Source: Rhodoferax sp. (GTDB taxonomy: Bacteria > Pseudomonadota > Gammaproteobacteria > Burkholderiales > Burkholderiaceae_C). Taken from it: a stretch of DNA of 64,000 nt. How positions within the stretch are numbered: the stretch's first letter is position 1; the number at the start of each line of letters is the position of its first letter. Location of the stretch: the NCBI RefSeq assembly GCF_023700745.1, contig NZ_JAMPYG010000001.1, positions 310,001 to 374,000 of the forward strand. The letters are read 5' to 3'. The notes beneath the pieces are model-generated. The model saw nothing but the letters and a program-made list of their open reading frames with translations, made no database searches and was not told where the DNA came from. The translations under genes were made by a program, and so were the position numbers. This document shows positions 4,851 through 62,434 of the stretch, in pieces.

Positions 4851-6170
4851 ATGATGACCACGAATAATTCCGCTGCGCCAACTGCACAGACCGCGACGCC
4901 AGGCCAGTCCGACACCAGCACGGCCCTCAAATTCATCACTTGCGGCAGCGTGGATGACGGCAAAAGCACCTTGATCGGCCGCCTGCTCGTTGACAGCCGC
5001 TCGGTGCTGCAAGACCAGTTGGCCAACGTCTCCAAAAGCGGCGAAGCCGACCTGGCGCAATTCACCGACGGCCTCTCCGCCGAGCGCGAGCAAGGCATTA
5101 CCATCGACGTCGCCTACCGCTACTTCAACACCGCCAACCGCAAGTTCATCATTGGCGACGCGCCCGGCCACGAGCAATACACCCGCAACATGGTCACCGC
5201 CGCCAGCAGCGCCGATGCCGCCGTGGTGCTGGTCGATGCCACCAAGCTGCAATGGCAGGACGCGGATTTGAATCTGCTGCCACAGACCCGCCGCCATTCG
5301 CTGCTGTGCCACTTGCTGCGCGTGCCCAGCATCGTCTTTGCCGTCAACAAGCTCGACGCTCTGGGTGCCGATGCCGAAAAGGCATTTGTCCATATCCGCG
5401 CAGCACTGGAAAAGTTCTCAGCCGAGGCTGGCATTGAAGTCACCGCCATCGTGCCGATCTCGGCGCTCAAGGGCCACAACGTGGTCGAATCGACCGACGA
5501 CGGCTGGTGCGGCTACAACGGCCTGAGCCTGCTCGACATTCTGGAAGAACTGCCGGTGACCCCCGCCGATACGGCGTTGCCACTGGCATTTCCGGTGCAA
5601 TGGGTCGAAAAATTTTCTGCCAGCGCCGACACCTCGCAAGGTCGCCGGGTGTTCTGGGGCCGGGTCGGTGCGGGCGTTGCCCAGGTCGGCCAGACCGTCA
5701 AGGTGCTGCCCAGCGGACAAACCGCCACCATCGCCCAGGTGCTGGGCCACACCCGCCAGCCGCGCACGGTACCAGCCGGTCACAGCGCCGGTATCGTGCT
5801 CGACCGCGAAGTGGACGTGTCGCGCGGCGACTGGCTGCTGGCCACTGATGCCGCGCCCGCCAGCCGTGAAATCACGGTCACGGTGGCCTGGATGGATGAC
5901 GAACCGCTGGTCGCCGGGCGCACCTACTGGGCGCTGCACGGCCACCGCTGGGTGAAAGCGCGCGTCAAACGCGTGGTGCACCGGCTCGACATCAACACGC
6001 TGGCCGAGGAGGACGCAAGCGCGCTCCCAGCCAACAGCATCGGCCACGTCGAACTGCTGTTGCAGGAGCCCCTTGCCGTGCAGTCGTTCAACACCTCGCG
6101 CGTGCTGGGCGCTTTGGTGCTGGTCGATACCGCCAGCCACAGAACCGCAGGGGCGGCCCTGGTGAATTGA
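4851..6170 (+). CDS. cysN: Sulfate adenylyltransferase subunit 1, GTPase (CysN)
   Basis: Translation-factor-like GTPase that drives APS synthesis by CysD. The 439-residue protein has the P-loop at residues 32-40 (GSVDDGKST), the DAPGHEQYTRNM switch II region and the NKLD guanine-specificity motif, then two beta-barrel domains. It stops at the usual CysN length, so there is no fused CysC kinase domain. Two ATGs in tandem open the frame (4851, 4854) and no convincing ribosome binding site precedes them. It follows cysD after a 119-bp REP-containing gap. Confidence 0.95.
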   Translation: MMTTNNSAAPTAQTATPGQSDTSTALKFITCGSVDDGKSTLIGRLLVDSRSVLQDQLANVSKSGEADLAQFTDGLSAEREQGITIDVAYRYFNTANRKFIIGDAPGHEQYTRNMVTAASSADAAVVLVDATKLQWQDADLNLLPQTRRHSLLCHLLRVPSIVFAVNKLDALGADAEKAFVHIRAALEKFSAEAGIEVTAIVPISALKGHNVVESTDDGWCGYNGLSLLDILEELPVTPADTALPLAFPVQWVEKFSASADTSQGRRVFWGRVGAGVAQVGQTVKVLPSGQTATIAQVLGHTRQPRTVPAGHSAGIVLDREVDVSRGDWLLATDAAPASREITVTVAWMDDEPLVAGRTYWALHGHRWVKARVKRVVHRLDINTLAEEDASALPANSIGHVELLLQEPLAVQSFNTSRVLGALVLVDTASHRTAGAALVN

Positions 6171-45950: not shown

Positions 45951-45998
45951 ATTGCAATTGAGTTGCGATAAACTATATTGCAATTCAGTTGCATTATT
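45951..45998. promoter_or_regulatory. Tandem putative Zur operators between zur and znuCBA
   Basis: Two near-identical 20-bp units with a 26-bp period, ATTGCAATTGAGTTGC (45951-45966) and ATTGCAATTCAGTTGC (45977-45992). Each is an imperfect palindrome of form GCAAYTSARTTGC. They lie in the divergent promoter region, fitting a Zur site for both directions. Confidence 0.7.
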
Positions 45999-46026
45999 GC
46001 AGCAATTTACCGATTTTCATCATGCC

Positions 46027-46224
46027 ATGACGCATCCAGCTCCCATACACCTGCACGATCACGCGCGTGCACCCACCCATGCCAGCCTCCCCCAGGCCAG
46101 AATCAGCAGGCGCCTGAGCGTACTGGCCTGGCCTGCATGGCGAAGAATCCTGGTCATCCTGCCGCTGGTGATCACGCTCTGGCTGGCTGTTTGGTGGGCC
46201 AACATGGGAGCGGTCCCGTGGTAA
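46027..46224 (+). CDS. Small His-rich single-TM protein before znuC
   Basis: A 65-residue open frame whose N-terminus is rich in His (THPAPIHLHDHARAPTH), followed by one hydrophobic segment (about 44-60, ILVILPLVITLWLAVWWANMG). It overlaps the znuC GTG by 7 bp. The position after the Zur operators suggests a metal-related accessory role. No family was recognised, and the coding status is moderately likely because of translational overlap and its composition. Confidence 0.6.
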   Translation: MTHPAPIHLHDHARAPTHASLPQARISRRLSVLAWPAWRRILVILPLVITLWLAVWWANMGAVPW

Positions 46225-46955
46225 GGATTGACAACCTGACGGTGAGCTACCGCCAGCACCCTGCCCTGCACCACGTCAGCGGCGAATTTGCCAATGGCTC
46301 CCTCACCGCCGTGATCGGTCCCAATGGCTCGGGCAAGAGTACGCTGCTCAAAAGCATCATGGGCCTGCTGACAAGCTCTGGTGGACGTGTTCAGGTGAAT
46401 ACGCCGCGTGCACGCATCGCCTACCTGCCGCAAATGACCGAGATCGACCGCAGCTTTCCGATGCCGGTGCGCGATTGCGTGCTGCTGGGTTGCTGGAGCG
46501 CCTTGGGAGCCTGGGGCGGCGTCACTGCCGACATGCTGGCCTGTGCCGATGCCGCCATTCACAACGTCGGGCTGGAGGGTTTTGAGGAGCGCACGGTGGG
46601 CTCGCTGTCGAGCGGACAGTTTCAGCGCGTGCTGTTTGCCCGTCTGCTGATGCAGGACGCCGATCTGATTCTGCTCGACGAACCCTTCAACGCGATGGAC
46701 TCGCGCACCACGGCCACGCTGCTCGACCTGATCAAACAGTGGCACGCCCAGGGCCGCACCGTGATTGCCGTGCTGCATGACGACGCCCAGGTGCGCGCCC
46801 ACTTTGATCAGACGGTGCTGCTGGCGCGCGAACTGGTGGCCTGGGGCGATACAGCGGCGGTGCTGACAGATGCCAATTTGCTGCGTGCCCGCGCCCTGGC
46901 CGAAGCCTGGGACGATAGCGCCGACATTTGCCACACCGACGAGGTCACCGCATGA
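46218..46955 (+). CDS. znuC: Zinc ABC transporter ATP-binding protein ZnuC
   Basis: ATPase of the ZnuABC-type metal importer, 245 residues. Walker A GPNGSGKST, signature LSSGQFQRV and Walker B LILLDEPF are intact. The start is GTG at 46218 with GGGAG eight bases upstream (46206-46210); a longer upstream frame has no similarity. It overlaps znuB by 4 bp. Zinc rather than manganese is inferred from the Zur context. Confidence 0.9.
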   Translation: MVRIDNLTVSYRQHPALHHVSGEFANGSLTAVIGPNGSGKSTLLKSIMGLLTSSGGRVQVNTPRARIAYLPQMTEIDRSFPMPVRDCVLLGCWSALGAWGGVTADMLACADAAIHNVGLEGFEERTVGSLSSGQFQRVLFARLLMQDADLILLDEPFNAMDSRTTATLLDLIKQWHAQGRTVIAVLHDDAQVRAHFDQTVLLARELVAWGDTAAVLTDANLLRARALAEAWDDSADICHTDEVTA

Positions 46956-47836
46956 TGGCGCTGTGGGACTTTGTGGTCGGCCCGTTTGCCGAATTCGCCT
47001 TCATGCGCCGTGCGCTGGTGGCCACGCTGGCGCTCGCCGTGAGCGCCGCCCCGCTTGGTGTCTTCCTGACGCTGCGCCGCATGAGTCTGCTGGGTGATGC
47101 CATCAGCCACGCTGTGCTGCCCGGTGTGGCGATTGGTTTCATGTTTTCTGGCCTGTCACTGACCGCCATGGCCGCCGGTGGCGTGATCTCGGGCATGCTG
47201 GCCGCCGGCCTGGCCGGCTTCATCAGCCGCTTCACCACGCTGAAAGAAGACGCCAGCCTGGCCGCAATTTACCTGGTGGCGCTGGCCCTGGGGGTGACCC
47301 TGTTATCGCGGCAAGGTACACAGCTCGACCTGCTGCACATTTTGTTCGGCAGTGCCCTGGGGGTGGATGGCTCCGGATTGCTGCTGGTGGTCAGCGTCGC
47401 CAGTGTCAGCGTGATCGCCCTGGCGGCGCTGTACCGCGGACTGGTACTGGAGAGCTTTGACCCGGTATTTCTGGCTGCCGCGGGCTGCGGCTGGGGCCGT
47501 CGCGGCTGGATCTGGCAGCAGGCTTTTCTGATGCTGGTCGTGGTCAACCTGGTGGCCGGCTTTCAGACCCTGGGCACGCTGATGGCGGTGGGTCTGATGA
47601 TGCTGCCAGCGGTATCGGCCCGGCTCTGGCACGATTCCTTGAGCGCTCAACTGGTCAACGCCAGCGTCCAGGCCGCCTTAGCCGGCAGCGTCGGGCTGCT
47701 GCTGTCCTACCACCTCGACACACCCAGCGGGCCGACCATCATTGGCTGCGCCGGGCTGCTTTACGGCCTGTCCCTGGCGGTATCGCCCGGCGGCTGGCTG
47801 CCCCGCGCGCTCAAGCGCCCGCACCGGGTCGGCTGA
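46952..47836 (+). CDS. znuB: Zinc ABC transporter permease ZnuB
   Basis: Metal ABC permease of the ABC-3 family, 294 residues, about eight hydrophobic segments. The ATG at 46952 overlaps the znuC TGA (ATGA). Characteristic SLLGDAISHAVLPGVAIGF is near residue 45, and GFQTLGTLMAVGLMMLPA is near residue 215. Confidence 0.92.
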   Translation: MMALWDFVVGPFAEFAFMRRALVATLALAVSAAPLGVFLTLRRMSLLGDAISHAVLPGVAIGFMFSGLSLTAMAAGGVISGMLAAGLAGFISRFTTLKEDASLAAIYLVALALGVTLLSRQGTQLDLLHILFGSALGVDGSGLLLVVSVASVSVIALAALYRGLVLESFDPVFLAAAGCGWGRRGWIWQQAFLMLVVVNLVAGFQTLGTLMAVGLMMLPAVSARLWHDSLSAQLVNASVQAALAGSVGLLLSYHLDTPSGPTIIGCAGLLYGLSLAVSPGGWLPRALKRPHRVG

Positions 47837-47867
47837 ATTTACCCCCAATAGACAAGAAAACCACACC

Positions 47868-48770
47868 ATGATCAACATCCTCGCGATCCCGGCACTGCTT
47901 TTTGGCGTGCTCTTCATGCCAGTCGGCCATGCCACAGAGCCGGTTCCGGTGGTGGCCTCGTTCAGCATCCTCGGCGACCTGGTGCAGGTGGTGGGTGGCG
48001 AGCGTGTGCAGGTCACGACCCTGGTGGGGCCCGATGCCGACGCCCACAGCTTCGAGCCCAGACCCGCCGACGCGAGGACCATTTTGAAAGCACGGCTGTT
48101 TGTGATCAATGGGCTCAACTTTGAACCCTGGGCCGAAAAACTGGCCAAATCGGCCGCTTACCAGGGCAGCATGGTGGTGGCCTCGCGTGGCGTCAAGCCG
48201 CTTCAGCTGGAAGCCGCTGGCCACGGTCACGGCCACCATGATGCCGACCCGCACGCCTGGCAAAACCCCAACAACGTGGTGCTGTACGTACAAAATATTG
48301 CTGCCAGCCTGTCCAAAGTGGACCCTGCGGGTGCGAGCAGCTACCAGGCCAATGCAGCGCGTTATGCCCAACAGCTGCAAGAGTTTGATGCGCAAGCCAG
48401 GGCGCAAATTGCCGCCCTGCCCGCAGCCAAACGCAAGGTGATCACCTCACACGATGCTTTTGGCTACTTTGCGGCGCATTACCAGATCAAGTTTCTGTCG
48501 CCTGAGGGTGTCAACGCCGATGCCACGCCCAGCGCGAAACATGTGGCCGGGTTGATCCGGCAAATGAAGCGCGAAAAAATCAGGGCCGTCTTTGTCGAGA
48601 ACATGAGCAACCCCAAATTGATCGCGCAACTCAGCAAAGACGCTGGCGCCACGCTGGGCGGCACCCTGTACTCCGACGCGCTGTCCGGGCCGGCTGAGCC
48701 GGGTTCAAGTTACCTCAAAATGATGCAGCACAACCTGACGCAACTGCTTGCCGGCATGCTACTTAATTAG
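47868..48770 (+). CDS. znuA: Zinc ABC transporter substrate-binding protein ZnuA
   Basis: Periplasmic metal-binding protein of 300 residues with a signal peptide (MINILAIPALLFGVLFMPVGHA). The metal site is visible: DAHSFEP, a short His-rich loop (GHGHGHHDADPHAW) instead of the long loops of some ZnuA, SHDAFGYFAAHY and YSDAL. It starts 31 bp after znuB. The final gene of the zinc operon. Confidence 0.92.
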   Translation: MINILAIPALLFGVLFMPVGHATEPVPVVASFSILGDLVQVVGGERVQVTTLVGPDADAHSFEPRPADARTILKARLFVINGLNFEPWAEKLAKSAAYQGSMVVASRGVKPLQLEAAGHGHGHHDADPHAWQNPNNVVLYVQNIAASLSKVDPAGASSYQANAARYAQQLQEFDAQARAQIAALPAAKRKVITSHDAFGYFAAHYQIKFLSPEGVNADATPSAKHVAGLIRQMKREKIRAVFVENMSNPKLIAQLSKDAGATLGGTLYSDALSGPAEPGSSYLKMMQHNLTQLLAGMLLN

Positions 48771-49830: not shown

Positions 49831-50634
49831 TCAGCGCTGCATGGCCCAGCGGGCAAAGTAACTCAAAGCGTCGACCACGGCCACCAGCAGCATCATGGCG
49901 ATCAGTACCGAACTGGTTTCCATCATCTGGAACAAGCCCATGTGAAAGGCCAGCATCTGCCCCAGACCACCGGCGCCAACGACACCCAGCACGGCCGCCG
50001 CACGGATGTTGTTTTCCCAGCGGTACAGGGTGTAGCTCACCAGTTGCGGCAAGGCCTGGGGGAAATCGGCGTACCAGAACACCTTGGCCTTGGATAGACC
50101 ACGCACGCGCAGGGCCTCGGCCGGACCCTGCGGCTGGTTCTCGAAACTCTCGGCAAACAGGCGACCCAGCACCCCCGTGGTGTGCAGCGCCAGCGCCAGC
50201 GTGCCTGCCAATGGACCCAGCCCGGCCGAGATCAGCAGCAGCGCGGCCCAGACCAGTTCGGGAATACTGCGCAGTGCATTGAGCAGCAGCCGGGTCGGGC
50301 CACGCCAGCGTGCCGCGTCACCGGCGTGGGTTCGGGCCGCAGGCAGGGCCAGCGCCAAACCGGCCACAGCCGCCAGCGCCGTACCCAGCGCCGACATGGC
50401 CAGGGTCTCCAGGCTGGCCCACAGCACTTTGTGCAGAAACGCCGGGGCGGTTTGCGGCACCAGCAACTCACTGACAAAACGCCCCATGGAAGCCAGCGCG
50501 TCCAGCGACCAAAACCTGCCCCACTGCAAGTCCAGCGACATGAAGCTGGCCAGCACCAGGACCAGCAGCCCAAGGTTGAGCCAGCAGGCCTTGCAGCGCC
50601 AGTGCCACAGCGGCGGTGGACGCACGGGGCTCAT
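49831..50634 (-). CDS. phnE: PhnE-like ABC permease (second)
   Basis: Inner-membrane permease of 267 residues in the phosphonate/phosphite/selenate-type ABC family, with about six hydrophobic segments and the EAA-like loop region RALRVRGLSKAKVFWYADFPQAL. Its start overlaps the preceding permease stop by 4 bp. The transport substrate is probably a selenium oxyanion given the sen cluster; phosphonate genes are absent. Confidence 0.85.
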   Translation of the reverse strand: MSPVRPPPLWHWRCKACWLNLGLLVLVLASFMSLDLQWGRFWSLDALASMGRFVSELLVPQTAPAFLHKVLWASLETLAMSALGTALAAVAGLALALPAARTHAGDAARWRGPTRLLLNALRSIPELVWAALLLISAGLGPLAGTLALALHTTGVLGRLFAESFENQPQGPAEALRVRGLSKAKVFWYADFPQALPQLVSYTLYRWENNIRAAAVLGVVGAGGLGQMLAFHMGLFQMMETSSVLIAMMLLVAVVDALSYFARWAMQR

Positions 50635-51467
50635 GCCAGCGCCTTCCTCAGCAGGCCACTGGCCCGGTCGGCCAGCCAGACCAGCGCCATGAACACCAGC
50701 AACATGGTGGCCACTTCGCTGCCATTAAACATCTTCATCGAGGCGTCCATCTGCTGACCCAGACCGCCGGCACCGACAAAGCCCAGCACCGTCGACGAGC
50801 GGATGGCGCACTCCCAGCGGTAGACCGTGTAGCTGGTGAGCTCAGTAGCGCTTTGCGGCAGCAAGCCGTAGCAAAAGGCCTGCAAGCGGCCACTGCCGTT
50901 ACGCAACAGGGTTTGTGTGGGTTGTCCATCGCTGGATTCCAGAATCTCGGCGTAGACCTTGCCCAGCATGCCGGCGTAAGTGAGCGCAATGGCCAACACG
51001 CCCGAGGTCGGGCCCAAGCCGACGACGCGGACAAAAATCAGCGCCCAAATCAGCTCGGGCACACTTCTGAGCAACATCAGCAGCCAGCGCACCGCCTGGC
51101 GGACGGTAGCGGGCAACAAGGCCATGCGACCCGACAGGGCAGACACCGAGAGGGGGCGCGCCGCGATCAACGCCAGCGGGATGGCCCAGCCCAGCGCCAG
51201 CACGATGCCCGCCGTGGCGATGGCCACGGTGCGCCAGGTCTCGCGCGCCACCAGTAGCAAAAACTCCGGTTCCAGCTTGGGTGGGAAAAAGTCCCCCAGA
51301 AAGCTCAATGTGGGGCGCAGGCTCTCGGGGCTAAAGAGCGTCCAGGGCTTGAATTCAGCCAGCACCAGCAGCGGCCAGGCCACCACGCCCGTGACGAGCA
51401 GCGCAAACAGCCGGCCGATCCAGGCGGGGTCGCGTCGTGCCGCAGCCGGTGTGCGCAGGATTCCCAT
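50631..51467 (-). CDS. phnE: PhnE-like ABC permease (first)
   Basis: A 278-residue permease paralog of the next gene, with a similar C-terminal half (TSYTVYRWECAIRSSTVLGFVGAGGLG against the sister's SYTLYRWENNIRAAAVLG). Together the two permeases probably make a heterodimeric channel for the PhnD-like binding protein. It starts 1 bp after the ATPase gene stop. Confidence 0.86.
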   Translation of the reverse strand: MGILRTPAAARRDPAWIGRLFALLVTGVVAWPLLVLAEFKPWTLFSPESLRPTLSFLGDFFPPKLEPEFLLLVARETWRTVAIATAGIVLALGWAIPLALIAARPLSVSALSGRMALLPATVRQAVRWLLMLLRSVPELIWALIFVRVVGLGPTSGVLAIALTYAGMLGKVYAEILESSDGQPTQTLLRNGSGRLQAFCYGLLPQSATELTSYTVYRWECAIRSSTVLGFVGAGGLGQQMDASMKMFNGSEVATMLLVFMALVWLADRASGLLRKALA

Positions 51468-51468
51468 G

Positions 51469-52299
51469 TCAGCGGCAGGTCAAGGCCACGGCCGGGACAG
51501 CGGCTGGCGACAGCTCAAGCGGCGTGGCCGGCCCGGTCAACTCGTCCAGGTGGCGCGCGTACAGATCGGTCAGGCGCTCAGGGGTCACATCAGAGGTCGG
51601 CAGGTCAAACACCACTTCGCCATCACGCAAACCCACGATGCGCGGGAAGTGCTGCAGCGCCATGTCGACATGGTGCAAGGTAGCGACCAGCGTGGCCTGC
51701 TGGTCACGCGCCACTGCGGTGATCGACGCACAGGCCTGGCGGGCGCGCTCGGGGTCGAGCGCCGACAGCGGCTCATCGACCAGCAACAGGCGCGCGTTGG
51801 CCACGGCCAGCCGCGCCAGCCCGACCCGCTGGCGCTCGCCGCCTGAGAGTCGGTCGACGCGCTCGAACAATTTTTCAGCCAGGTCAAAGCGCGCCAGTGC
51901 CGCTTCGGCCAGTTCGATCTGCCGTGGGTAGAGCAAGTTGCCCAGGCTGGCCCACAACCCCATGCCCGGCAGCAGGCCGGCCAGTACGGCCGTGATGACC
52001 CGCTGGCGCGGCGGCAACGGTGGCACCTGCGGGGCAAGACAGAGTTGACCGCGCAGGCGCTGCAAGTCTGCCGTGCGCAAGGCCCACGGATCGCGCCCAT
52101 CGAGCAGCAATTGGCCTGCGCTCGGCTTGAGGGCGCAGGCCATCACCTGCAGCAGCGTGGTTTTGCCCGCACCCGAGGGGCCGATGATGGCCACCTGCTC
52201 GCCCTGCGCCAGGCTCAGGTCCATGGCCTTGAGCGCTGGCGCAGCTGATGCGGGTGCCGACGGGTGCTGCGCCGAGCAGCCCTGCAAGGCTATGTGCAT
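51469..52299 (-). CDS. phnC: PhnC-like ABC transporter ATP-binding protein
   Basis: ATPase of the PhnCDE-type importer, 276 residues. Walker A GPSGAGKTT, signature LSGGERQRV and Walker B LLLVDEPLS are intact. It sits 18 bp after the binding-protein gene. In phosphonate systems this gene is normally accompanied by phn lyase genes, which are lacking. Selenium import is therefore more likely. Confidence 0.88.
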   Translation of the reverse strand: MHIALQGCSAQHPSAPASAAPALKAMDLSLAQGEQVAIIGPSGAGKTTLLQVMACALKPSAGQLLLDGRDPWALRTADLQRLRGQLCLAPQVPPLPPRQRVITAVLAGLLPGMGLWASLGNLLYPRQIELAEAALARFDLAEKLFERVDRLSGGERQRVGLARLAVANARLLLVDEPLSALDPERARQACASITAVARDQQATLVATLHHVDMALQHFPRIVGLRDGEVVFDLPTSDVTPERLTDLYARHLDELTGPATPLELSPAAVPAVALTCR

Positions 52300-52317
52300 C
52301 GCAACAAGCCGCCTGGC

Positions 52318-53178
52318 TTACTTGAGCAGGCCGGCACTGCGGGCTGCCGCCTCGATGCCCTGGTAATTGGCGGCCTGGGTCGGGATGAAACGGCTGGCAC
52401 GTTGCAACTCCAGCAAGGCCTTGCCTTCGGGCGTGCTGTTGTTCAGGTCCAGAAAGGCTTGCGTGAGCTTGGTGCGCAAGGCCGGTGCCATGTCGGCGTG
52501 CACGGTCCAGTTGTAGTCAAAATAAGCCGGCGTGGTGTAAAACACCCGGACCTTGGCGGTGTCGACTTTTTTGTCGGCCACAAACTTGTCCCAAACCGAA
52601 ATATTGAGCGCACCGGCGTCGACCTTGCCTGCCGCCACGGCGGCAATGGTGGCGTCATGGGCACCCGAGAACGCCACGCGCTTGAGGTCGGTGTCGGGGT
52701 TGATCCTGGCCTCCAACAGATAGTTGCGCGGCATCAGGTGGCCGGAGGTGCTCGACGCCGAGCCAAAGCTCAGGGTTTTGCCTTTCAGGTCGGCCAGCGC
52801 CAAGATGCCCGGCTGCGAGGTGATGAAAACCGATTTGAAGTTAGCGTCTTCGGCGCGTTGCACCAGCGGCAGTACCTTGCCGCCCGAACGCACGTTGGCC
52901 TGAACAAAAGTGAAGCCGCCAAACCAGGCCATGTCGACCTGTTTGTTCACCAGTGTTTCCACGGCGGCAGCGTAATCGGACACCGGGGTGAATTCCACCT
53001 TCATACCCAGTTTTTGCGACAGGTAGCTCACCAGCGGGGCCGCCTTGCGCGCCAGTTCGGTGGGCGATTCGTCGGGGATGGCGGTGATCTTGAAAACCTG
53101 TTGCGCGACGCTTTGGCCACTGATGCCAAGGACGGCGCAAGCCAGCAGGGTGTTGAGGGTGAAACGGCGTGAGGTCAT
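52318..53178 (-). CDS. phnD: PhnD-like periplasmic substrate-binding protein (putative selenate/selenite binder)
   Basis: A 286-residue binding protein with signal peptide (MTSRRFTLNTLLACAVLGIS). The ligand-site regions are TAIPDESPTEL near residue 33, then VDMAWFGGFTF and FGSASSTSGHLMPR, as in PhnD-type proteins. A clade of such proteins is annotated as putative selenate binding proteins. The gene is divergent from egtD and the first of the four-gene transporter operon; the sen cluster lies directly on the other side. Confidence 0.85.
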   Translation of the reverse strand: MTSRRFTLNTLLACAVLGISGQSVAQQVFKITAIPDESPTELARKAAPLVSYLSQKLGMKVEFTPVSDYAAAVETLVNKQVDMAWFGGFTFVQANVRSGGKVLPLVQRAEDANFKSVFITSQPGILALADLKGKTLSFGSASSTSGHLMPRNYLLEARINPDTDLKRVAFSGAHDATIAAVAAGKVDAGALNISVWDKFVADKKVDTAKVRVFYTTPAYFDYNWTVHADMAPALRTKLTQAFLDLNNSTPEGKALLELQRASRFIPTQAANYQGIEAAARSAGLLK

Positions 53179-53214
53179 GAGCTTAAAGTGCTTTCTGTGA
53201 ATGAATAAATGCGG

Positions 53215-53228
53215 TTGACGCATGTCAA
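53215..53228. promoter_or_regulatory. Palindrome TTGACGCATGTCAA in the phnD-egtD divergent region
   Basis: Perfect arms TTGAC/GTCAA with a 4-bp centre in the 140-bp region between the phnD and egtD starts. Read on the minus strand, TTGACA is part of a possible -35 for the transporter. Possible shared operator; regulator unknown. Confidence 0.4.
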
Positions 53229-53318
53229 GGTGCGCCAAAGCCGGGGGGCAATGGTAATCAAAAATGTCGATGGCTGTCAGGAGCGCTACGATCAGGCCCC
53301 AGCCACTCACAGCAAGCC

Positions 53319-54311
53319 ATGAAAACGCCTGACTTTGTCCAACTGCACCACGACAGCGCCGAGCACATTCGCCACGAGCTTGTGCAGGGCCTGACGGCCA
53401 ACCCGCAGCCCGGCGGCGCCACGGTGAGCCCGAAGTTTTTGTACGACGCGCTGGGCTCGCGCCTGTTCGAAGCCATCACCGAGCTGCCCGAGTACTACCC
53501 GACGCGCACCGAGGCGGCGATCTTCAAGACGCATGCCCAGGCCATGGCCCGGGCCATGCCGCCAGGGGCCACGCTGATTGACCTGGGCGCGGGCAACTGC
53601 GGCAAGGCTACCGGGCTCTTTGACGTGCTGCGCCCCAGTCGCTATGTGGCGGTGGACATCTCGGTCGATTTTTTGCGCGCCACCCTGAACCTGTTGCAGC
53701 GTCAGTACCCGGCCATGGACCTGGTCGGCATCGGGCTCGATTTTTCTCAAACGCTGGAGTTGCCACCTCAGGCCGGTGAACCTGGCGCGGGCCCAAGGCT
53801 GCTGTTTTACCCGGGCTCGAGCATTGGCAACTTCACCCCGACCCAGGCCCTGGTCTTCTTGCGCCAGGTGCGCGCGGCCTGTGGTCCGGTGGCGGGCAGC
53901 GGGCTGCTGATCGGGGTGGATCTGGTGAAAGACGCCACTGAACTGGAAGCCGCCTATGACGATGCCCTGGGTGTCACCGCCGCTTTCAACCGCAACCTGA
54001 TCTCCAACGTGAACCGACTGGTGGGCACCGACATGCGGCTGCCCGACTGGGCGCACCACGCCTTGTTCAACCCCATGGCGTCGCGCATTGAAATGCATCT
54101 GGTGGCACAGCGCGACCTGATGGTGCAGTGGCCGGGCGGCCAGCGCGCCTTCAGCCAGGGTGAGCGCATCCATACTGAAAATTCTTACAAATGGACAGTG
54201 GCTGGTTTTTCGCAGTTGCTGCGCGAGGCGGGTTTTGCCGAGCCGCTGGTGTGGACCGATGCGCCGAGCGCCGATGCGGGTCGCTTTGCCGTGATGTGGG
54301 CGGGTGCCTGA
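53319..54311 (+). CDS. egtD: L-histidine N(alpha)-methyltransferase EgtD
   Basis: SAM-dependent trimethylation of histidine to hercynine, the scaffold of ergothioneine and selenoneine. The 330-residue protein has the EgtD start PKFLYDALGSRLFEAITELPEYYPTR (about 38-63) and the SAM motif LIDLGAGNCGKA. The Asn/Tyr histidine-binding regions SSIGNFTP and SNVNRLVG, and the C-terminal SYKWTVAGF, are typical. It faces the transporter operon and its stop is 12 bp from the senA stop. No egtB-egtC pair is present besides senA. Confidence 0.93.
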   Translation: MKTPDFVQLHHDSAEHIRHELVQGLTANPQPGGATVSPKFLYDALGSRLFEAITELPEYYPTRTEAAIFKTHAQAMARAMPPGATLIDLGAGNCGKATGLFDVLRPSRYVAVDISVDFLRATLNLLQRQYPAMDLVGIGLDFSQTLELPPQAGEPGAGPRLLFYPGSSIGNFTPTQALVFLRQVRAACGPVAGSGLLIGVDLVKDATELEAAYDDALGVTAAFNRNLISNVNRLVGTDMRLPDWAHHALFNPMASRIEMHLVAQRDLMVQWPGGQRAFSQGERIHTENSYKWTVAGFSQLLREAGFAEPLVWTDAPSADAGRFAVMWAGA

Positions 54312-54323
54312 GCCATGACTTTT

Positions 54324-55589
54324 TTACCCGGTGCAGCTTCTGAACCCCGCATGCATGTCGTTGCGCTCGGGCGTGAAGTAATTGCGGTAGCGCGGGTGCA
54401 CCATGCGCTCGGCGCTGGCCCAACTGGCACCGCGCAGCACCGGCCGGTCGCCAAACCAGGGGGCCGAGTAGTCAAGGTAAGGGTGTGCCACAAAACCGGG
54501 GTACGGGCTAAACCTGCTGGCGGTCCATTCCCAGACCTCGCCCCAGTGAAAATCAGCCTGGGTCATGGCGGCCTGTTCCCACTGTGCTTCGGTGGGCAAC
54601 TGGCGGCCGGCCCAACGGCACCAGGCCTCGGCCTCGAAATAACTCAGGTGACAGGCGGGGGCTTCCAGGTCCAGCGCGTGCCACTGACCAAAGCGGCATT
54701 GTTCCCACAGCGGCGCGCCCTGGCCCAGGCTGACCTGGCGCAAATAACGCGGACTGGCCACAACCGCAGCGCCCTGCCCGGCTTGCAGCCACTGCCAGCC
54801 CGGCCCGGACCACCACTGGGCGTCGGTATAGCCACCTGCCTCGACAAAGGGCAAATAGCGCCGCCACGACACCGGTCGGTCGTCGATGGCATAGGCGTCC
54901 AGCGGCACGCTGTGCGGCCCCAGTTCGTTGTCAAAGGCAAAGCCCTGGCCTGTGTAGCCCAGCGTCCAGTCACCCGCCGCCAGTTTGAGCAACTGCGCCG
55001 AGCCACGGGTTCGCGGGGTCTGGTCGTGGATAAGCGCTGGCGGCAGCGCCAAGGCCAGGGACTGCGCCATATAGACGGCCGCCTCGCCGTGCATGTCTTC
55101 ATGGAACAAGGCCAGGCGGTAGAAATACAGCGCGGCATCGTCGGTGGGTTCAGCCGCCAGCAAGGCCAGGGTCTGCGCCAGCGTGGCCTGCAGATACGCC
55201 CGGGTGGCCTGCAAGTCAGGCAGCGGCAAATGCCAACGGCTGTCGTGCGCCACCACACTGGAGTTGTACAGTGCATCGGCTTGCGGCAACAACGCGGGCA
55301 CGCGTGCCACCAGCGGATCCGCCTGCACCCCCAAACGGCGCTGCGGGTTGCGCGCCAGCCAGAATTCCTGAAACCAGGCGATGTGACCTGCTTCCCACAG
55401 CGGCGGGTTAAGTTGTGGGCTGCACGGCACGGCCAGCCCCGGCCCCAGCGCTGCCTCGTAGGCATTCAGCAAGGCCAGCGTGCGGGCGCGGCTGGCCTGC
55501 AGCAGCTGCGCCAACGCCTGCGGGTCTGCGCTGCGCGCCGCCTGGGCGGGTTGCCAGCGGTGCCAGGGTGGAGTCGACTCGGGGAGCAT
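54324..55589 (-). CDS. senA: Selenoneine synthase SenA (EgtB-like, SUMF1 domain)
   Basis: Non-heme iron enzyme that couples a selenosugar (or a sulfur donor) to hercynine. The 421-residue protein has a DinB-like N-terminal domain with likely iron ligands H69, H163 and H167 (GHIAWF, HEDMH) and a C-terminal SUMF1/FGE-like domain (QLPTEAQWEQAA, WEWTASRFSPYPGF). The family name rests on homology to EgtB together with the adjacent senB and senC. An ordinary EgtB role is the alternative. The ATG at 55589 lies only 5 bp from the divergent senB ATG. Confidence 0.85.
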   Translation of the reverse strand: MLPESTPPWHRWQPAQAARSADPQALAQLLQASRARTLALLNAYEAALGPGLAVPCSPQLNPPLWEAGHIAWFQEFWLARNPQRRLGVQADPLVARVPALLPQADALYNSSVVAHDSRWHLPLPDLQATRAYLQATLAQTLALLAAEPTDDAALYFYRLALFHEDMHGEAAVYMAQSLALALPPALIHDQTPRTRGSAQLLKLAAGDWTLGYTGQGFAFDNELGPHSVPLDAYAIDDRPVSWRRYLPFVEAGGYTDAQWWSGPGWQWLQAGQGAAVVASPRYLRQVSLGQGAPLWEQCRFGQWHALDLEAPACHLSYFEAEAWCRWAGRQLPTEAQWEQAAMTQADFHWGEVWEWTASRFSPYPGFVAHPYLDYSAPWFGDRPVLRGASWASAERMVHPRYRNYFTPERNDMHAGFRSCTG

Positions 55590-55594
55590 GGCTG

Positions 55595-56623
55595 ATGACC
55601 TCCATCAAAAAACAAGTGGTGATTGTGAGCCCGGCGCTGGCCGATGCCAACAACGGCAATTGGCAAACCGCCAGGCGTTGGCAAAAATTTCTGCAGACAC
55701 CCACAGCCAGCCACCCCGGATTCCAGGTGCGCATCGTGACCCAGTGGCCTGATGGCCCGGCTGCCGCACACGACAGCGCCATGATCGCCTTGCACGCGCG
55801 GCGCTCGGCGGCGTCGGTCAACGCCTGGGCGCAAAGCCAGTGGTGTGACACAGACTTGCAGCCGGTGGCCGGCCTGGCCGTGGTGCTGACCGGCACCGAC
55901 CTGTACCGCGACATCCAGACGGATGTGCAGGCCCAGCGTTCGCTGCAGTTGGCACAGCGCCTGGTGGTGTTGCAAGACCTGGGCTTGGCGCGCTTGCCGA
56001 CGGCGCTACACCCCCGCACCCAAGTGATTTATCAGTCCACGTCGGCGCGCCAGAGCCTGGCCAAATCGGCGCGCTTGCTCAGGGCGGTGATGGTCGGCCA
56101 CCTGCGCGACGAGAAGTCGCCACAGACCCTGTTTGCCGCCGCCCGACTGCTAGAGCCCTTTGATGCCATTCACATCGACCACATTGGCGCGCCACTGGAC
56201 GCCGCCCTGGCGGCCCAGGCGCAGGCCACGGCCACCGCCTGCCCTGGCTACCGCTGGCTGGGCGCCTTGCCGCACGAGGCCACGCGCCGGCGCATCCAGC
56301 GCGCCCATGTGCTGGTGCACACCAGCCGCATGGAAGGCGGCGCCCATGTGGTGATGGAGGCGGTGCGCTGCGGCACACCGGTGCTGGCCTCGCGCATTGA
56401 CGGCAATGTGGGCATGCTGGGGACCGATTACGCGGGCTACTTTGACTGGGACAATGCACACCAGCTGGTCGATCTGCTGCGGCGCTGCCGCCACGAACCA
56501 GCTTTTTTGGCGCTTTTGCAAGCCCAGTGCGCAGCGCGTGCACCGCTGTTTGCGCCAGAGGCCGAGCAATTGGCGCTGCAACAGCTGGTGACCGGACTCA
56601 CCGCACCGCCCGCCTGCCGCTGA
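55595..56623 (+). CDS. senB: Selenosugar synthase SenB (glycosyltransferase)
   Basis: GT4-like glycosyltransferase of 342 residues, predicted to build a selenosugar from selenophosphate and a UDP-sugar. The start at 55595 has GGGGAG upstream, inside the senA coding region. N-terminal VVIVSPALADANNGNWQTARRW and the late EGGAHVVMEAVRCGTPVLAS nucleotide-sugar motif are typical. The nearest named proteins are the SenB family of selenoneine clusters. It lies between senA (divergent) and senC. Confidence 0.86.
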   Translation: MTSIKKQVVIVSPALADANNGNWQTARRWQKFLQTPTASHPGFQVRIVTQWPDGPAAAHDSAMIALHARRSAASVNAWAQSQWCDTDLQPVAGLAVVLTGTDLYRDIQTDVQAQRSLQLAQRLVVLQDLGLARLPTALHPRTQVIYQSTSARQSLAKSARLLRAVMVGHLRDEKSPQTLFAAARLLEPFDAIHIDHIGAPLDAALAAQAQATATACPGYRWLGALPHEATRRRIQRAHVLVHTSRMEGGAHVVMEAVRCGTPVLASRIDGNVGMLGTDYAGYFDWDNAHQLVDLLRRCRHEPAFLALLQAQCAARAPLFAPEAEQLALQQLVTGLTAPPACR

Positions 56624-56665
56624 CAGCCACCGCTCTTTTTTGTTTTTTCTGAAGCTTTTCTCCTG

Positions 56666-58957
56666 ATGCAACACCCCAGTCAACCCATTGCCAGAGACAT
56701 CGTGCTGATTGGCGGCGGCCACAGCCATGTGGGCGTGCTCAAACGCTTTGGCATGCAGCCCGAAACCGGCGTGCGCCTGACCGTGATCTGCACCGATGTC
56801 CATACGCCCTACTCTGGCATGTTGCCAGGCTACGTGTCGGGCCACTACGCTTATGACGAGGTGCATATCGACCTAGCAGGGCTGGCCGTGTTTGCCGGTG
56901 CCCGGCTTTACCGCGACGAGGTGGTGGGCATTGACCGCGCGGCCCAAAAAGTGCTGTGCCGCCATCGCCCGCCGGTGCCTTACGACTGCTTGTCGATCAA
57001 CATCGGCTCGACGCCGCGCCTGAACGGTGTCACCGGGGCCGATGCCTTCAGCACGCCGGTCAAGCCCATCACCCGCTTCAACCAGCGCTGGCTGGCGCTG
57101 CTGGCCAGGGTGCAAGAGCACACCCAGGGGCTACTGCGCATTGCGGTGGTTGGCGCCGGGGCTGGCGGGGTTGAGCTGCTGTTGTCAATGCAGTATCGCC
57201 TGCGCCAGGAACTGATGTCTCGCGGGCACGACCCCGCACTGCTGCAGTTTCACCTGCTCACAGCGACAGACAGCATCCTGCCGACCCACAACACGCGGGT
57301 GCGCCGCAAGTTTGCCAGCGTGCTGGCCGAGCGTGGTGTGCAGGTGCTCCTGAATGCGGAGGTCACGCGGGTCGAACCCGGTCGGCTGCTCTGTGCTGGC
57401 GGCCAGGTGGTCGAGGCCGACGAGATCATGTGGGTCACGCAAGCGGGCGGTGCGCCCTGGCTGCAAGATACCGGCCTGGCGCTCGATGCCGGCGGCTTTG
57501 TGCGGGTGAACGACCAGCTGCAAACCGTCACCGATCCGACCATTTTTGCCGCCGGCGACATTGCCGCCATGGACAATTTCCCGCTGGAAAAGGCCGGCGT
57601 GTTTGCCGTTCGCATGGGCCGGCCGCTGGCCGACAACCTGCGCCTGAGCGTGCAGGGTCGCGCCTTGCGGAGCTACCGGCCGCAATCGCGCTGGCTCGCC
57701 CTGATCAGCACCGGCGACCGTTATGCCGTGGCCTCGCGCGGCGCTTTGGGTTTCTGGGGTGACTGGGTGTGGCGCTGGAAAGACGGGATCGACCGGCGTT
57801 TCATGCGCAATTTTTCCGAATTTCCCGACATGCAAGCCAAAACGGAGGCACCGGCGCGCAGCACAACGTCACAACTGGCGCTGAACCCGGACGAAGCCCT
57901 GCAGGCGATTTCGGCCATCGCCATGCGCTGCGGTGGCTGTGGTGCCAAGGTGGGAGCCACAGTACTGTCAAGGGCGCTCGCGTCCTTGCAAGTGGTGCAG
58001 CGCGACGATGTACTCATCGGCCTCAAAGACCCCGACGACGCGGCGGTGGTGCGCGTGCCGCCCGGCATGGCACTGGTGCATTCAGTGGACTTTTTCCGCG
58101 CCTTTGTCGACGACCCCTACCTGTTCGGCAAGGTTGCCGCCAACCACGCCCTGGGTGACATTTTTGCCATGGGCGCCGAGCCGCAGTCGGCCACCGCCAT
58201 TGCCACCGTGCCCCCGGGGCTGGAGGCCAAGGTCGAAGACCTGCTGTTCCAGATGATGAGCGGCGCGGTCGAGGTGCTCAACGACGCCGGCTGTGCGCTG
58301 GTGGGCGGTCACACCGGGGAAGGGTCTGAACTGGCACTGGGCTTTGCGGTGAACGGCCTGATGGACGAGCAGCTGGCAGGTGTCACGCGCAAAGGTGGCA
58401 TGCAGCCCGGCGATGTGCTGATTCTGACCAAGCCGATTGGCACCGGCACACTGTTTGCCGCCCACGCCCGGCTGGCGGCCAAGGGGCGCTGGATCGACGC
58501 CGCGCTGCAGTCCATGGTGCTGTCCAACCGGCAAGGTGCCCAGTGCCTGCGCGACTTTGGCGCCACCGCCTGCACCGACCTGACCGGCTTTGGCCTGCTG
58601 GGCCACCTCGTCGAGATGACCCGGGCCTCAGAGGTAGATGCCGAACTGGTGTTGTCAGCGCTGCCGCTGCTGGAAGGTGCGCAGGAAACCGTAGCGGCGG
58701 GCATCGTGAGCTCGCTGCAACCCGCCAATGTGCGCCTGCGCCGGGCGCTGCGCAATCAGGAAGAATTTGTCATTCACCCGCGTTACCCGCTGCTGTTCGA
58801 CCCACAAACTGCCGGTGGCCTGCTGGCCAGCGTACCGGCTGACCGGGCTCAAGGCTGTGTGGCGGCATTGCAGGCAGCTGGTTATAGCAACACAGCCATC
58901 ATTGGGCGCATCCTGGCGCAGGGCGAGGCGCTGGAGCCTGTGGTGTTATTACCGTGA
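56666..58957 (+). CDS. senC: Selenide, water dikinase fused to an NADH-dehydrogenase-like flavoprotein (SenC/SelD)
   Basis: Two-domain 763-residue protein. Residues 1 to about 380 form a pyridine-nucleotide-disulfide oxidoreductase-type flavoprotein (IGGGHSHVGVL, GAGAGGVEL, FAAGDIAAMDNFPLEKAGVFA). Residues about 405-763 are SelD, with C425 in GCGAK at the position of the catalytic Cys/Sec of E. coli SelD and DFFRAFVDDPY and GHTGEGSE motifs. Selenophosphate made here would feed SenB. The upstream domain may supply reduced selenium or redox coupling. It starts 42 bp after senB, same strand. A general selD role cannot be excluded. Confidence 0.88.
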   Translation: MQHPSQPIARDIVLIGGGHSHVGVLKRFGMQPETGVRLTVICTDVHTPYSGMLPGYVSGHYAYDEVHIDLAGLAVFAGARLYRDEVVGIDRAAQKVLCRHRPPVPYDCLSINIGSTPRLNGVTGADAFSTPVKPITRFNQRWLALLARVQEHTQGLLRIAVVGAGAGGVELLLSMQYRLRQELMSRGHDPALLQFHLLTATDSILPTHNTRVRRKFASVLAERGVQVLLNAEVTRVEPGRLLCAGGQVVEADEIMWVTQAGGAPWLQDTGLALDAGGFVRVNDQLQTVTDPTIFAAGDIAAMDNFPLEKAGVFAVRMGRPLADNLRLSVQGRALRSYRPQSRWLALISTGDRYAVASRGALGFWGDWVWRWKDGIDRRFMRNFSEFPDMQAKTEAPARSTTSQLALNPDEALQAISAIAMRCGGCGAKVGATVLSRALASLQVVQRDDVLIGLKDPDDAAVVRVPPGMALVHSVDFFRAFVDDPYLFGKVAANHALGDIFAMGAEPQSATAIATVPPGLEAKVEDLLFQMMSGAVEVLNDAGCALVGGHTGEGSELALGFAVNGLMDEQLAGVTRKGGMQPGDVLILTKPIGTGTLFAAHARLAAKGRWIDAALQSMVLSNRQGAQCLRDFGATACTDLTGFGLLGHLVEMTRASEVDAELVLSALPLLEGAQETVAAGIVSSLQPANVRLRRALRNQEEFVIHPRYPLLFDPQTAGGLLASVPADRAQGCVAALQAAGYSNTAIIGRILAQGEALEPVVLLP

Positions 58958-59412: not shown

Positions 59413-60051
59413 ATGCAAGTTCTGGACAAGACAGCCAAACAGCGCACCGAGGTGCGTCAAGCCGGGTTGGTGGACGCCGCACTGATGCTGGCTGCGCAAC
59501 GCAGCCCGGCAGACATCACCACAGCTGACCTGGCGCATGCGGTCGGCATATCGCAAGGTGCAGTGTTCAAGCACTTCGCCAGCAAGGAAGCCATCTGGCT
59601 GGCCGTGCTCGACTGGATGGCCGACACCTTGATGGCGCGTCTGCAACTGGCGGCCAAGGGTGCAGAAAACGTCGCCTTGCCGGCCCTGCGAGCGGTCTTT
59701 CTGGCCCATGTGGACTTCGTCATGCACTACCCCGGCGTGCCCCGGCTGATCTTTCAGGAGCTACAGCGTCCGGGCGACACCGCGCTGAAAAACCGGGTGC
59801 GTGAGTTGCTGCTGCACTATCGACAGTTGCTGCTGGGCGTCTTGCAGCAGGCCCAAACACAGCAGGCACTGCGCCCAGGCATCGACCTTTCCGCCGCCGC
59901 CGTGCTGTTCATCGGTTCAATCCAGGGCCTGGTGATGCAAGCCATGCTGGCTGACGATGTGCCCGCCATTGCCAGACAGGCTCCTGGCGTTTTTGCCATT
60001 CTCCAACAGGGGCTGCAATGCCCGCCCAATGACCTTGAAGGAAGACCATGA
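59413..60051 (+). CDS. TetR/AcrR family transcriptional regulator
   Basis: A 212-residue regulator with an N-terminal helix-turn-helix (about residues 30-55: TADLAHAVGISQGAVFKHFASKEAIW) and an all-helical effector domain. It overlaps the following adaptor gene by 4 bp, so it is in one transcript with the efflux genes that it probably represses. Confidence 0.9.
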   Translation: MQVLDKTAKQRTEVRQAGLVDAALMLAAQRSPADITTADLAHAVGISQGAVFKHFASKEAIWLAVLDWMADTLMARLQLAAKGAENVALPALRAVFLAHVDFVMHYPGVPRLIFQELQRPGDTALKNRVRELLLHYRQLLLGVLQQAQTQQALRPGIDLSAAAVLFIGSIQGLVMQAMLADDVPAIARQAPGVFAILQQGLQCPPNDLEGRP

Positions 60052-61244
60052 ACGCCACAGCCTTACTCAAACGCCGCCTGATGCTGGGTGCCATTGCCCT
60101 GGCCCTCGTCGCCGGCATGGCCTATGTGTCGCTGCGCACCGGCCCGCTGGCGCCCATCAAGGTCACAGTGGCCAGCCCCGTCGAGGGCAGTCTGAACCCG
60201 TCCATTTTTGGCATCGGCACGGTCGAAGCGCGGCGCAGCTGGATGGTCGGTCCGACCGTGGCCGGGCGCGTGTTGAGCGTCAAGGTAGATGTGGGCGACC
60301 AGGTCAAGGCCGGGCAACTGCTGGCCGAAATGGACCCGGTGGACTTGAGTGAGCGCCTGGCCGCATTGGATGCCTCATTGGCGCGGGCTGGCAGTGCCCA
60401 GGCTGCCGCGCAGGCACAGTTGCTGGACTCCAAAGCACGCAGCGCGTTAGCTGCCAGCACGACCCAACGCAACCAGGACCTGGCACGGCAAAACTTCATC
60501 AGCCCCGGCGCGCTGGATGCCGTCCTGCAGAGCCAGGCTTCGGCCAGCGCGGCAGTACAGGCGGCGCAAGCCAATCTGGCAGGCACCGGCCAGGACCTGA
60601 CGCGCCTCAAAGCAGAGCGCGCAGCATTGGCACAGCAGCATGACAACTTACGCCTGTTCGCCCCGGCCGACGCGGTGGTGACCACGCGTGACGCCGAGGC
60701 GGGCAGCACGGTGGTGGCGGGACAACCCGTGCTGCGCCTGATGGACCCGGCCAGCCTGTGGATCAGGCTGCGTGTTGACCAGGGCCGCTCGGCCGGTCTG
60801 GCCAACGGTGTCAAGGCCAGCATCGTGCTGCGTTCCCGACCACAAACGCCCTTGAGCGGCCAGGTGGCACGGCTGGAACTGTTGGCCGACAGCGTGACCG
60901 AAGAGCGCCTGGCCCAGGTGGCGTTTGATGCGCCGCCGACTGCCGTGTCGGTGGGGGAAATGGCCGAAGTCACCTTGCAACTGCCCACCACCACGCCGGC
61001 ACTGCTGTTACCCAACGCCGCCATCCAGTATCAACAAGGCCAGAGCGGTGTCTGGCGCGTGACCAGTGGCAAGCCTGAATTCACTTCGGTGGAGCTCGGC
61101 ATCCAGAGCCTGGACGGCCAGGTGCAGGTGCTCAAGGGACTGGATAAAAGCGACCAGGTGGTGGTCTACAGCCAGAAAGCCCTGAGCAGCGGCTCGCGCA
61201 TCTCGGTGGTAGACGCCTTGGTGAAGCCCGAGGCATCCCAATGA
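60048..61244 (+). CDS. HlyD/RND-type periplasmic adaptor subunit
   Basis: Membrane fusion protein of 398 residues: an N-terminal anchor (about 13-30, MLGAIALALVAGMAYVSLR), biotinyl-lipoyl half-motifs (VGPTVAGRVLSVKVDVGDQVKAG), a coiled-coil hairpin region (about 100-190, Ala/Gln/Lys-rich) and a beta-barrel. It would link the downstream permease to an outer-membrane factor. Its ends overlap neighbours by ATGA. Similar adaptors pair with DevBCA-type exporters. Confidence 0.89.
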   Translation: MNATALLKRRLMLGAIALALVAGMAYVSLRTGPLAPIKVTVASPVEGSLNPSIFGIGTVEARRSWMVGPTVAGRVLSVKVDVGDQVKAGQLLAEMDPVDLSERLAALDASLARAGSAQAAAQAQLLDSKARSALAASTTQRNQDLARQNFISPGALDAVLQSQASASAAVQAAQANLAGTGQDLTRLKAERAALAQQHDNLRLFAPADAVVTTRDAEAGSTVVAGQPVLRLMDPASLWIRLRVDQGRSAGLANGVKASIVLRSRPQTPLSGQVARLELLADSVTEERLAQVAFDAPPTAVSVGEMAEVTLQLPTTTPALLLPNAAIQYQQGQSGVWRVTSGKPEFTSVELGIQSLDGQVQVLKGLDKSDQVVVYSQKALSSGSRISVVDALVKPEASQ

Positions 61245-62434
61245 TCAGCCTGGCCGGCCGCGACATCCTGCATGGTTGGGGCAAGTTTGCCCTCACCGGC
61301 CTGGGGCTGGGCTTGCTGATTGGCGTGACGCTTTCGATGGCTGGTATCTACCGCGGCATGGTGGATGATGCGCAGGCCCTGCTGAGCAACAGCCAGGCTG
61401 AGCTGTGGGTGGTGCAAAAAGACACCCAGGGCCCGTATGCGGAGTCGTCCAGCATCAAGGACGACGTGGTGCGCAGCGTGCGCGGCATGCCAGGCGTAGC
61501 GCAAGCCGCCAACGTGACCTACCTCACCATGCAGGTGCAGCGCCCCGGTGGCGAGGAAGCCCGCACCATGGTGGTGGGCGTGGAGCCCGGCAAACCCGGT
61601 GCGCCGGCTTACCTGGTGGCCGGGCGCCAGCTTACCCGCAACCACTATGAAGCCGTGGCCGATGTCAAGACCGGCCTCAAGCTGGGCGACGCGGTGCGCG
61701 TGCGCCGCCACAACTACACCGTGGTCGGGCTCACCGCACGCATGGTGTCCTCGGGCGGTGACCCGATGCTGTTTGTGCCGCTCAAGGACGCGCAGGAAGC
61801 GCAGTTTTTAAAGGACAACGACAGCATCGTCAATGACCGCACCCGCACCGCGGCCAACCCGGCTTTCAACCGCCCCGGCGTGCCGGGATTGCTCGATGCG
61901 GTACAAAACCTGCAAACCAGCAGCCACAACGTCAACGCCGTGCTGGTGCAGTTGCAACCGGGCTGGCAGGCCGATGAGGTGGCCGATGCCCTGAAGCGCT
62001 GGAAGCATGTGCAGGTTTACACCCGCGCTGGTATGGAAGACATCCTGGTGGCCAAGTTGATTGCCACCTCGGCCCGCCAAATCGGCATGTTTCTGGCGAT
62101 CCTGGCGGTGGTGAGCGCGGCCATTGTGGCCTTCATCATTTACACCATGACGCTGGGCAAAATCCGCGAAATTGCGGTGCTCAAGCTGATTGGCACGCGC
62201 AACACGACGATTGCCAGCATGATCCTGCAACAGGCCATGGGGCTCGGGCTGATCGGCTTCATGGTGGGCAAGATCTCGGCCACGGTCTGGGCGCCGATTT
62301 TCCCCAAATACGTGCTGCTGATGCCGCGCGATGCGGTCATCGGCCTGCTCGCCACCCTGCTCATTTGCGCCCTGGCCAGCACACTGGCGATTCGCGTGGC
62401 GCTCAAGGTCGACCCCGCCGAGGCGATTGGATGA
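61241..62434 (+). CDS. FtsX/MacB-like ABC transporter permease (DevC-like)
   Basis: A 397-residue permease with one N-terminal transmembrane segment (FALTGLGLGLLIGVTLSMAGIYRG), a large periplasmic domain (about 45-275), and three further helices in the C-terminal FtsX domain (IGMFLAILAVVSAAIVAFIIYTM and following). The DevBCA-type arrangement suggests lipid or macrolide-type export; the substrate is unknown. Confidence 0.88.
   Translation: MISLAGRDILHGWGKFALTGLGLGLLIGVTLSMAGIYRGMVDDAQALLSNSQAELWVVQKDTQGPYAESSSIKDDVVRSVRGMPGVAQAANVTYLTMQVQRPGGEEARTMVVGVEPGKPGAPAYLVAGRQLTRNHYEAVADVKTGLKLGDAVRVRRHNYTVVGLTARMVSSGGDPMLFVPLKDAQEAQFLKDNDSIVNDRTRTAANPAFNRPGVPGLLDAVQNLQTSSHNVNAVLVQLQPGWQADEVADALKRWKHVQVYTRAGMEDILVAKLIATSARQIGMFLAILAVVSAAIVAFIIYTMTLGKIREIAVLKLIGTRNTTIASMILQQAMGLGLIGFMVGKISATVWAPIFPKYVLLMPRDAVIGLLATLLICALASTLAIRVALKVDPAEAIG

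Follow-up and report, generated by a model that had tools for sequence, protein, structure and literature searches.

A predicted selenoneine gene island of Rhodoferax includes a TIGR04553-type importer that may bring in selenium

A 9.1-kb island in the genome of Rhodoferax sp. (assembly GCF_023700745.1) combines the genes of an importer with those of a predicted pathway to selenoneine. The assembly comprises 3.21 Mb in 35 contigs and is 94.6% complete. The window analyzed here is the 64,000-nucleotide stretch at positions 310001–374000 of contig C1 (NZ_JAMPYG010000001.1), and the coordinates below are those of the window. The island (49831–58957) contains eight genes, and every open reading frame (ORF) is intact. 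The proteins were assigned using NCBIfam models, the scores of which are given as bits/cut-off. Four genes on the minus strand encode an ATP-binding cassette (ABC) importer of the PhnDCEE type. The permeases phnE2 (49831–50634; TIGR01097, 248/216.7) and phnE1 (50631–51467; TIGR01097, just missed with 210/216.7) both contain the Pfam domain BPD_transp_1. The ATPase phnC (51469–52299) contains the Pfam domain ABC_tran and has TIGR02315 as its best model, below the cut-off (185/266). The substrate-binding protein is encoded by a phnD-like gene (52318–53178; TIGR04553, 406/250), the start of which is more likely at 53178 than at the mechanically called 53310. A divergent promoter region of 140 bp (53179–53318), delimited from the sequence, separates the phnD-like gene from egtD on the plus strand (53319–54311; TIGR03438, 343/290.9), the gene of the histidine N-alpha-methyltransferase that forms hercynine. 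The remaining genes are senA, for selenoneine synthase (54324–55589, minus strand; NF041186, 522/420), senB, for selenosugar synthase (55595–56623, plus strand; TIGR04348, 433/300), and senC, for an oxidoreductase–SelD fusion with a selenophosphate synthetase part (56666–58957, plus strand; TIGR03169 for the N-terminal domain, 493/310, and TIGR00476 for SelD, 296/125). An earlier, sequence-only reading had placed an island of importer, egtD, senA, senB, and senC at this position, and the intact ORFs and the family models agree with it.

The sen genes do not form a single operon: senA lies on the minus strand, converges with egtD across a gap of 12 bp, and diverges from senB. The start codons of senA and senB are separated by 5 bp (55589–55595); if both starts are correctly placed, at least one of the two promoters must be inside the coding sequence of the neighboring gene. 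A motif shared by phnD–egtD promoters was sought by counting 8-mers over 36 regions, some of them shortened by long ORF starts, and was rejected, as the counts returned GC-rich words only.

The family models identify SenA, SenB, SelD, and EgtD, and the synthesis of selenoneine is a well-supported prediction. SenA stays below the cut-off of the EgtB model TIGR03440 (255/360), and its closest solved structures are the selenoneine synthases 8ryz and 8k5i (E about 1e-123). Those closest to SenB are the selenosugar synthases 8jjq and 8fbx (E about 1e-112). In the SelD part of SenC, the cysteine and lysine of the motif GCGAKVG, residues with a catalytic role, align with those of SelD, and the protein does not belong to the related non-SelD fusion family TIGR04369 (444/700). 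The homology of SenB and SenC, which the sequence-only reading had named as a point where it could fail, is thus borne out by TIGR04348 for the former and by TIGR03169 and TIGR00476 for the latter. When an alignment was read by eye against the residue list for Variovorax SenB in the accessible part of PMC10891094, SenB was found to keep N20, T23, H58, R61, T83, T85, D86, R155, K158, and the segment EGGAHV. The reactions leading from selenophosphate and hercynine to selenoneine are established in the Variovorax homologues (PMC9814287; PMC10891094, accessible part). The sen cluster of Variovorax paradoxus DSM 30034 is the same in SenA, SenB, and a SelD-type SenC, whereas the Rhodoferax island adds egtD and the PhnDCEE importer, and its SenC is the oxidoreductase–SelD fusion.

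In the remainder of the 94.6%-complete genome, no second EgtB-like enzyme that would indicate an ergothioneine pathway was found, since TIGR03440 matches the SenA locus only, below the cut-off. The carbon–phosphorus (C-P) lyase, sought as PhnJ (PF06007), and SelA have no match in this genome either; these absences are soft because the assembly is incomplete. As neither another EgtB-like enzyme nor a C-P lyase was detected, selenoneine is the only visible fate of hercynine. The proposed pathway is upheld by the family models, the SenB residues, and the missing second EgtB-like match, with selenoneine as its predicted product. SelU has one match in the genome, contig C24 encodes another SelD (432 bits), and the fused SelD of SenC may be reserved for selenoneine.

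The substrate-binding protein of the island is the single protein of the genome above the TIGR04553 cut-off. Its best named match, among the matches listed, comes from a Rhodoferax metagenome-assembled genome and is 93% identical. In the comparison with family models that the sequence-only reading had proposed, the protein fell within TIGR04553 and failed the phosphonate PhnD model TIGR03431 (159/261), which sets it apart from the phosphonate-binding PhnD of E. coli. TIGR04553 is named "putative selenate ABC transporter substrate-binding protein" by NCBIfam. Because the binding protein belongs to this family, the selenium import proposed by the sequence-only reading coincides with an existing NCBI hypothesis, which predates the present analysis as the family name; the cargo of TIGR04553 is itself hypothetical. 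One paper (PMC13077682) reportedly uses the label "putative selenate ABC transporter". That the importer moves a selenium oxyanion and not a phosphonate is plausible, judging from the family membership, the failure of the PhnD model, the absence of PhnJ, and the adjacency in eight families described below; as a statement about cargo, it is unproven. Phosphonate-use genes elsewhere in the genome, a further point on which the earlier claim could fall, were checked as C-P lyase only, and in that form none was found.

The surroundings of the importer were compared in an even sample of 300 genomes of the order Burkholderiales, in which TIGR04553 exceeds its cut-off in 66 genomes and SenA in 65. Sel, Sen, or EgtD genes are located no more than about 8.5 kb from the importer at 13 of the 65 importer loci of this sample, from which the window's own locus was excluded. 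These 13 loci belong to eight families, counted because relatives are not independent, and 0.6–1.0 loci would be expected from a Poisson model with three or five target genes per genome of 3.8 Mb. SelD is near the importer at 12 of the 65 loci, SenA or SenB at nine, and EgtD at eight. Among the best 80 of at least 567 confirmed named relatives, a selection that favors close relatives, such neighbors are present at 55 loci (SelD 50, SenA or SenB 37, EgtD 30); a single SelD is found at 41 and an oxidoreductase–SelD fusion at 10. The divergent adjacent pair of phnD and egtD recurs in 27 of these 80 named and in six of the 65 sampled relatives. The neighbor thresholds were BLAST bits against the window proteins, at which weak SenA and EgtB are inseparable; weak matches of this kind lie near the importer at 13 of the same 80 named and four of the 65 sampled loci. 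Clustering of the neighbors returned, besides the transporter, SelD, EgtD, SenA-like proteins, and SenB, and the other clusters resembled ordinary genes or shadow ORFs. The island type is common to many relatives, and its enzymes are of known kinds. Nine genomes contain both TIGR04553 and PhnJ; eight of them have the two on separate contigs, and in G253 a distance of about 0.5 Mb lies between them. At loci L046 and L047 (genomes G269 and G298), the importer and egtD are accompanied by a SenA/EgtB-like gene that, with 405 and 379 bits, does not reach the SenA cut-off, and a SenA above the cut-off is encoded elsewhere in the same genomes (505 and 509 bits).

Selenite is a three-oxygen pyramid, like phosphite. 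The picocyanobacterial PhnD1 proteins of known structure (7S6G and 5LQ5) exceed the TIGR04553 cut-off and fall in the same clade as the TIGR04553 proteins, whereas three chains of the PtxB phosphite-binding proteins are placed in the other clade, of 21 rows, outside that of the window protein. New here is that picocyanobacterial PhnD1 is a member of the TIGR04553 family with the same pocket residues as the window protein. All 10 described pocket positions are identical, and the structural alignment identity of the window protein is 44% to 7S6G and 35% to 5LQ5. All 65 of the TIGR04553 proteins compared keep the capping tyrosine, Tyr222. In the lid, the combinations Asp36-Asn192-Asp221 (38 proteins) and Glu-Asp-Asn (25 proteins) switch jointly, with two odd rows, and possibly represent two ligand-lid types. 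According to the accessible parts of the sources, the dissociation constants (Kd) of PhnD1 for phosphite are 0.051 µM (5LQ5) and 0.67 µM (7S6G), within a range of 0.051–2.8 µM, and those for phosphate are 182 µM (5LQ5) and 7.4 µM (7S6G). Phosphite is thus preferred over phosphate 11-fold in MITS9220 and about 3,500-fold in MIT9301. The cellular role of PhnD1 is disputed because phosphite is not usable for its hosts; the protein has already been purified and crystallized. Since the PhnD1-type pocket prefers three-oxygen phosphite over phosphate, selenite seems, by analogy, a likelier cargo than selenate; the pocket suggests selenite where the family name says selenate.

We consider it rather probable that the island is an import-to-product route to selenoneine, in which the TIGR04553-type importer takes up selenium as an oxyanion, with selenite as the likeliest form. 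The oxyanion would enter through PhnDCEE and be reduced to selenide, perhaps aided by the flavin adenine dinucleotide/nicotinamide adenine dinucleotide (FAD/NAD) domain to which SelD is joined in SenC. The SelD domain would convert selenide to selenophosphate, and SenB would transfer the selenium of selenophosphate onto a uridine diphosphate (UDP)-sugar. Hercynine, predicted to be formed from histidine by EgtD, would then be combined with the selenosugar by SenA to give selenoneine.

Co-occurrence was rejected as the main evidence for this route. Across the 300 genomes, TIGR04553 is associated in Fisher tests with SenA (32/66 carriers vs 33/234 non-carriers, p 2.9e-8), SelU (61/66 vs 155/234, p 9.4e-6; the set of 216 SelU genomes is defined by strong E-values, vs 214 over the cut-off), and SelA (33/66 vs 53/234, p 4.4e-5), and any of the three is present in 62/66 carriers vs 159/234 non-carriers. 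The signal vanishes when genomes are shuffled within families, which covered 289 of the 300: SenA is found with TIGR04553 32 times, with 28.9 expected (p 0.10), and the p values are 0.18 for SelU, 0.76 for SelA, and 0.40 for any of the three. PhnJ accompanies TIGR04553 nine times, with 12.4 expected in the same shuffle. As co-occurrence is not significant within families, the case for the importer is carried by adjacency. Four carriers (G159, G170, G195, and G205) are without SenA, SelU, and SelA, with the SenA match of G170 at 419 bits and the cut-off at 420. The loss of significance within families weighs against the selenite-to-selenoneine route, as do the 52 of 65 sampled importer loci without a Sel, Sen, or EgtD neighbor, several of them on short contigs, and the tight binding of phosphite by the PhnD1 relatives in the accessible sources. 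Furthermore, 7S6G was solved with phosphate bound, a four-oxygen ion, which keeps selenate under consideration.

The probability is evenly balanced that the importer provides for all selenium products of the cell, which in this genome include selenouridine, instead of serving selenoneine alone. The shares of SelU (61/66) and SelA (33/66) among TIGR04553 carriers agree with such a general supply, as do the SelU and second SelD of this genome and the position of SelD as the commonest selenium-related neighbor (50/80 vs 37/80 for SenA or SenB among the best 80 of at least 567). The recurrent divergent egtD, which is without a known role in selenouridine synthesis, speaks for a closer tie to selenoneine (27 of those 80; 6/65). 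General supply is a broader form of the selenoneine route and both can hold; the importer probably feeds selenouridine synthesis too.

It is unlikely that the cargo is phosphite or phosphate, the ions proposed for picocyanobacterial PhnDCE, and that the adjacency of the importer to the sen genes is incidental. Both ions are bound by 5LQ5 and 7S6G with the constants given above, the pocket residues are identical, and the authors of PMC10284923, in its accessible part, conclude that the system is a constitutive phosphate transporter. However, chance proximity fits poorly with the Sel, Sen, and EgtD neighbors at 13 of 65 loci in eight families, and picocyanobacteria with PhnDCE alone fail to grow on phosphite, according to the accessible part of the source. 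In addition, PhnJ is missing from the genome of the island, in which PtxD was not searched for. Selenate, reduced inside the cell, is quite improbable as the cargo despite the NCBIfam name and the phosphate in 7S6G, because the invariant capping tyrosine disfavors a fourth substituent and the affinity for phosphate is 3,500 times (MIT9301) and 11 times (MITS9220) lower than that for phosphite in the accessible reports.

It is conceivable, if somewhat doubtful, that TIGR04553-type PhnDCE systems are selenite importers generally, and that Prochlorococcus and Synechococcus import their selenium through the picocyanobacterial PhnDCE. If so, phosphite would be bound tightly only through the three-oxygen pyramid that it shares with selenite. 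The island group and the picocyanobacteria would both pair the importer with an oxidoreductase–SelD fusion; in the island, the importer would feed selenoneine synthesis. In the accessible literature, picocyanobacterial PhnD1 was assayed on phosphorus ligands only and is not linked to sen genes. The literature searched, from which subscription papers including the 2022 sen paper were mostly outside coverage, yielded no paper that connects a PhnDCE importer with sen genes, and no report of selenite with PhnD1 or of selenium binding by a TIGR04553 protein.

Two sulfur assimilation genes are located in the window about 45 kb from the island, encoding a protein of the nitrite/sulfite reductase family (775–2583; best model 209/523 bits, below the cut-off) and CysN (4851–6170; 412/336 bits). 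Sulfite reductases reduce selenite. The island is directly preceded by a zinc-type ABC importer composed of an ATPase, an ABC-3 permease, and ZnuA (45978–48770), and is directly followed by genes for a TetR regulator and for HlyD-type and MacB/FtsX-type efflux proteins (59413–62434).

If the selenite-to-selenoneine route is correct, bacteria own a dedicated high-affinity selenite importer, and the island is a compact selenite-to-selenoneine module. The phosphonate or phosphite annotation of this gene set, which also occurs in very abundant ocean photosynthesizers, would then name the wrong element. The family identity of the importer with cyanobacterial PhnDCE is the point most worth pursuing.

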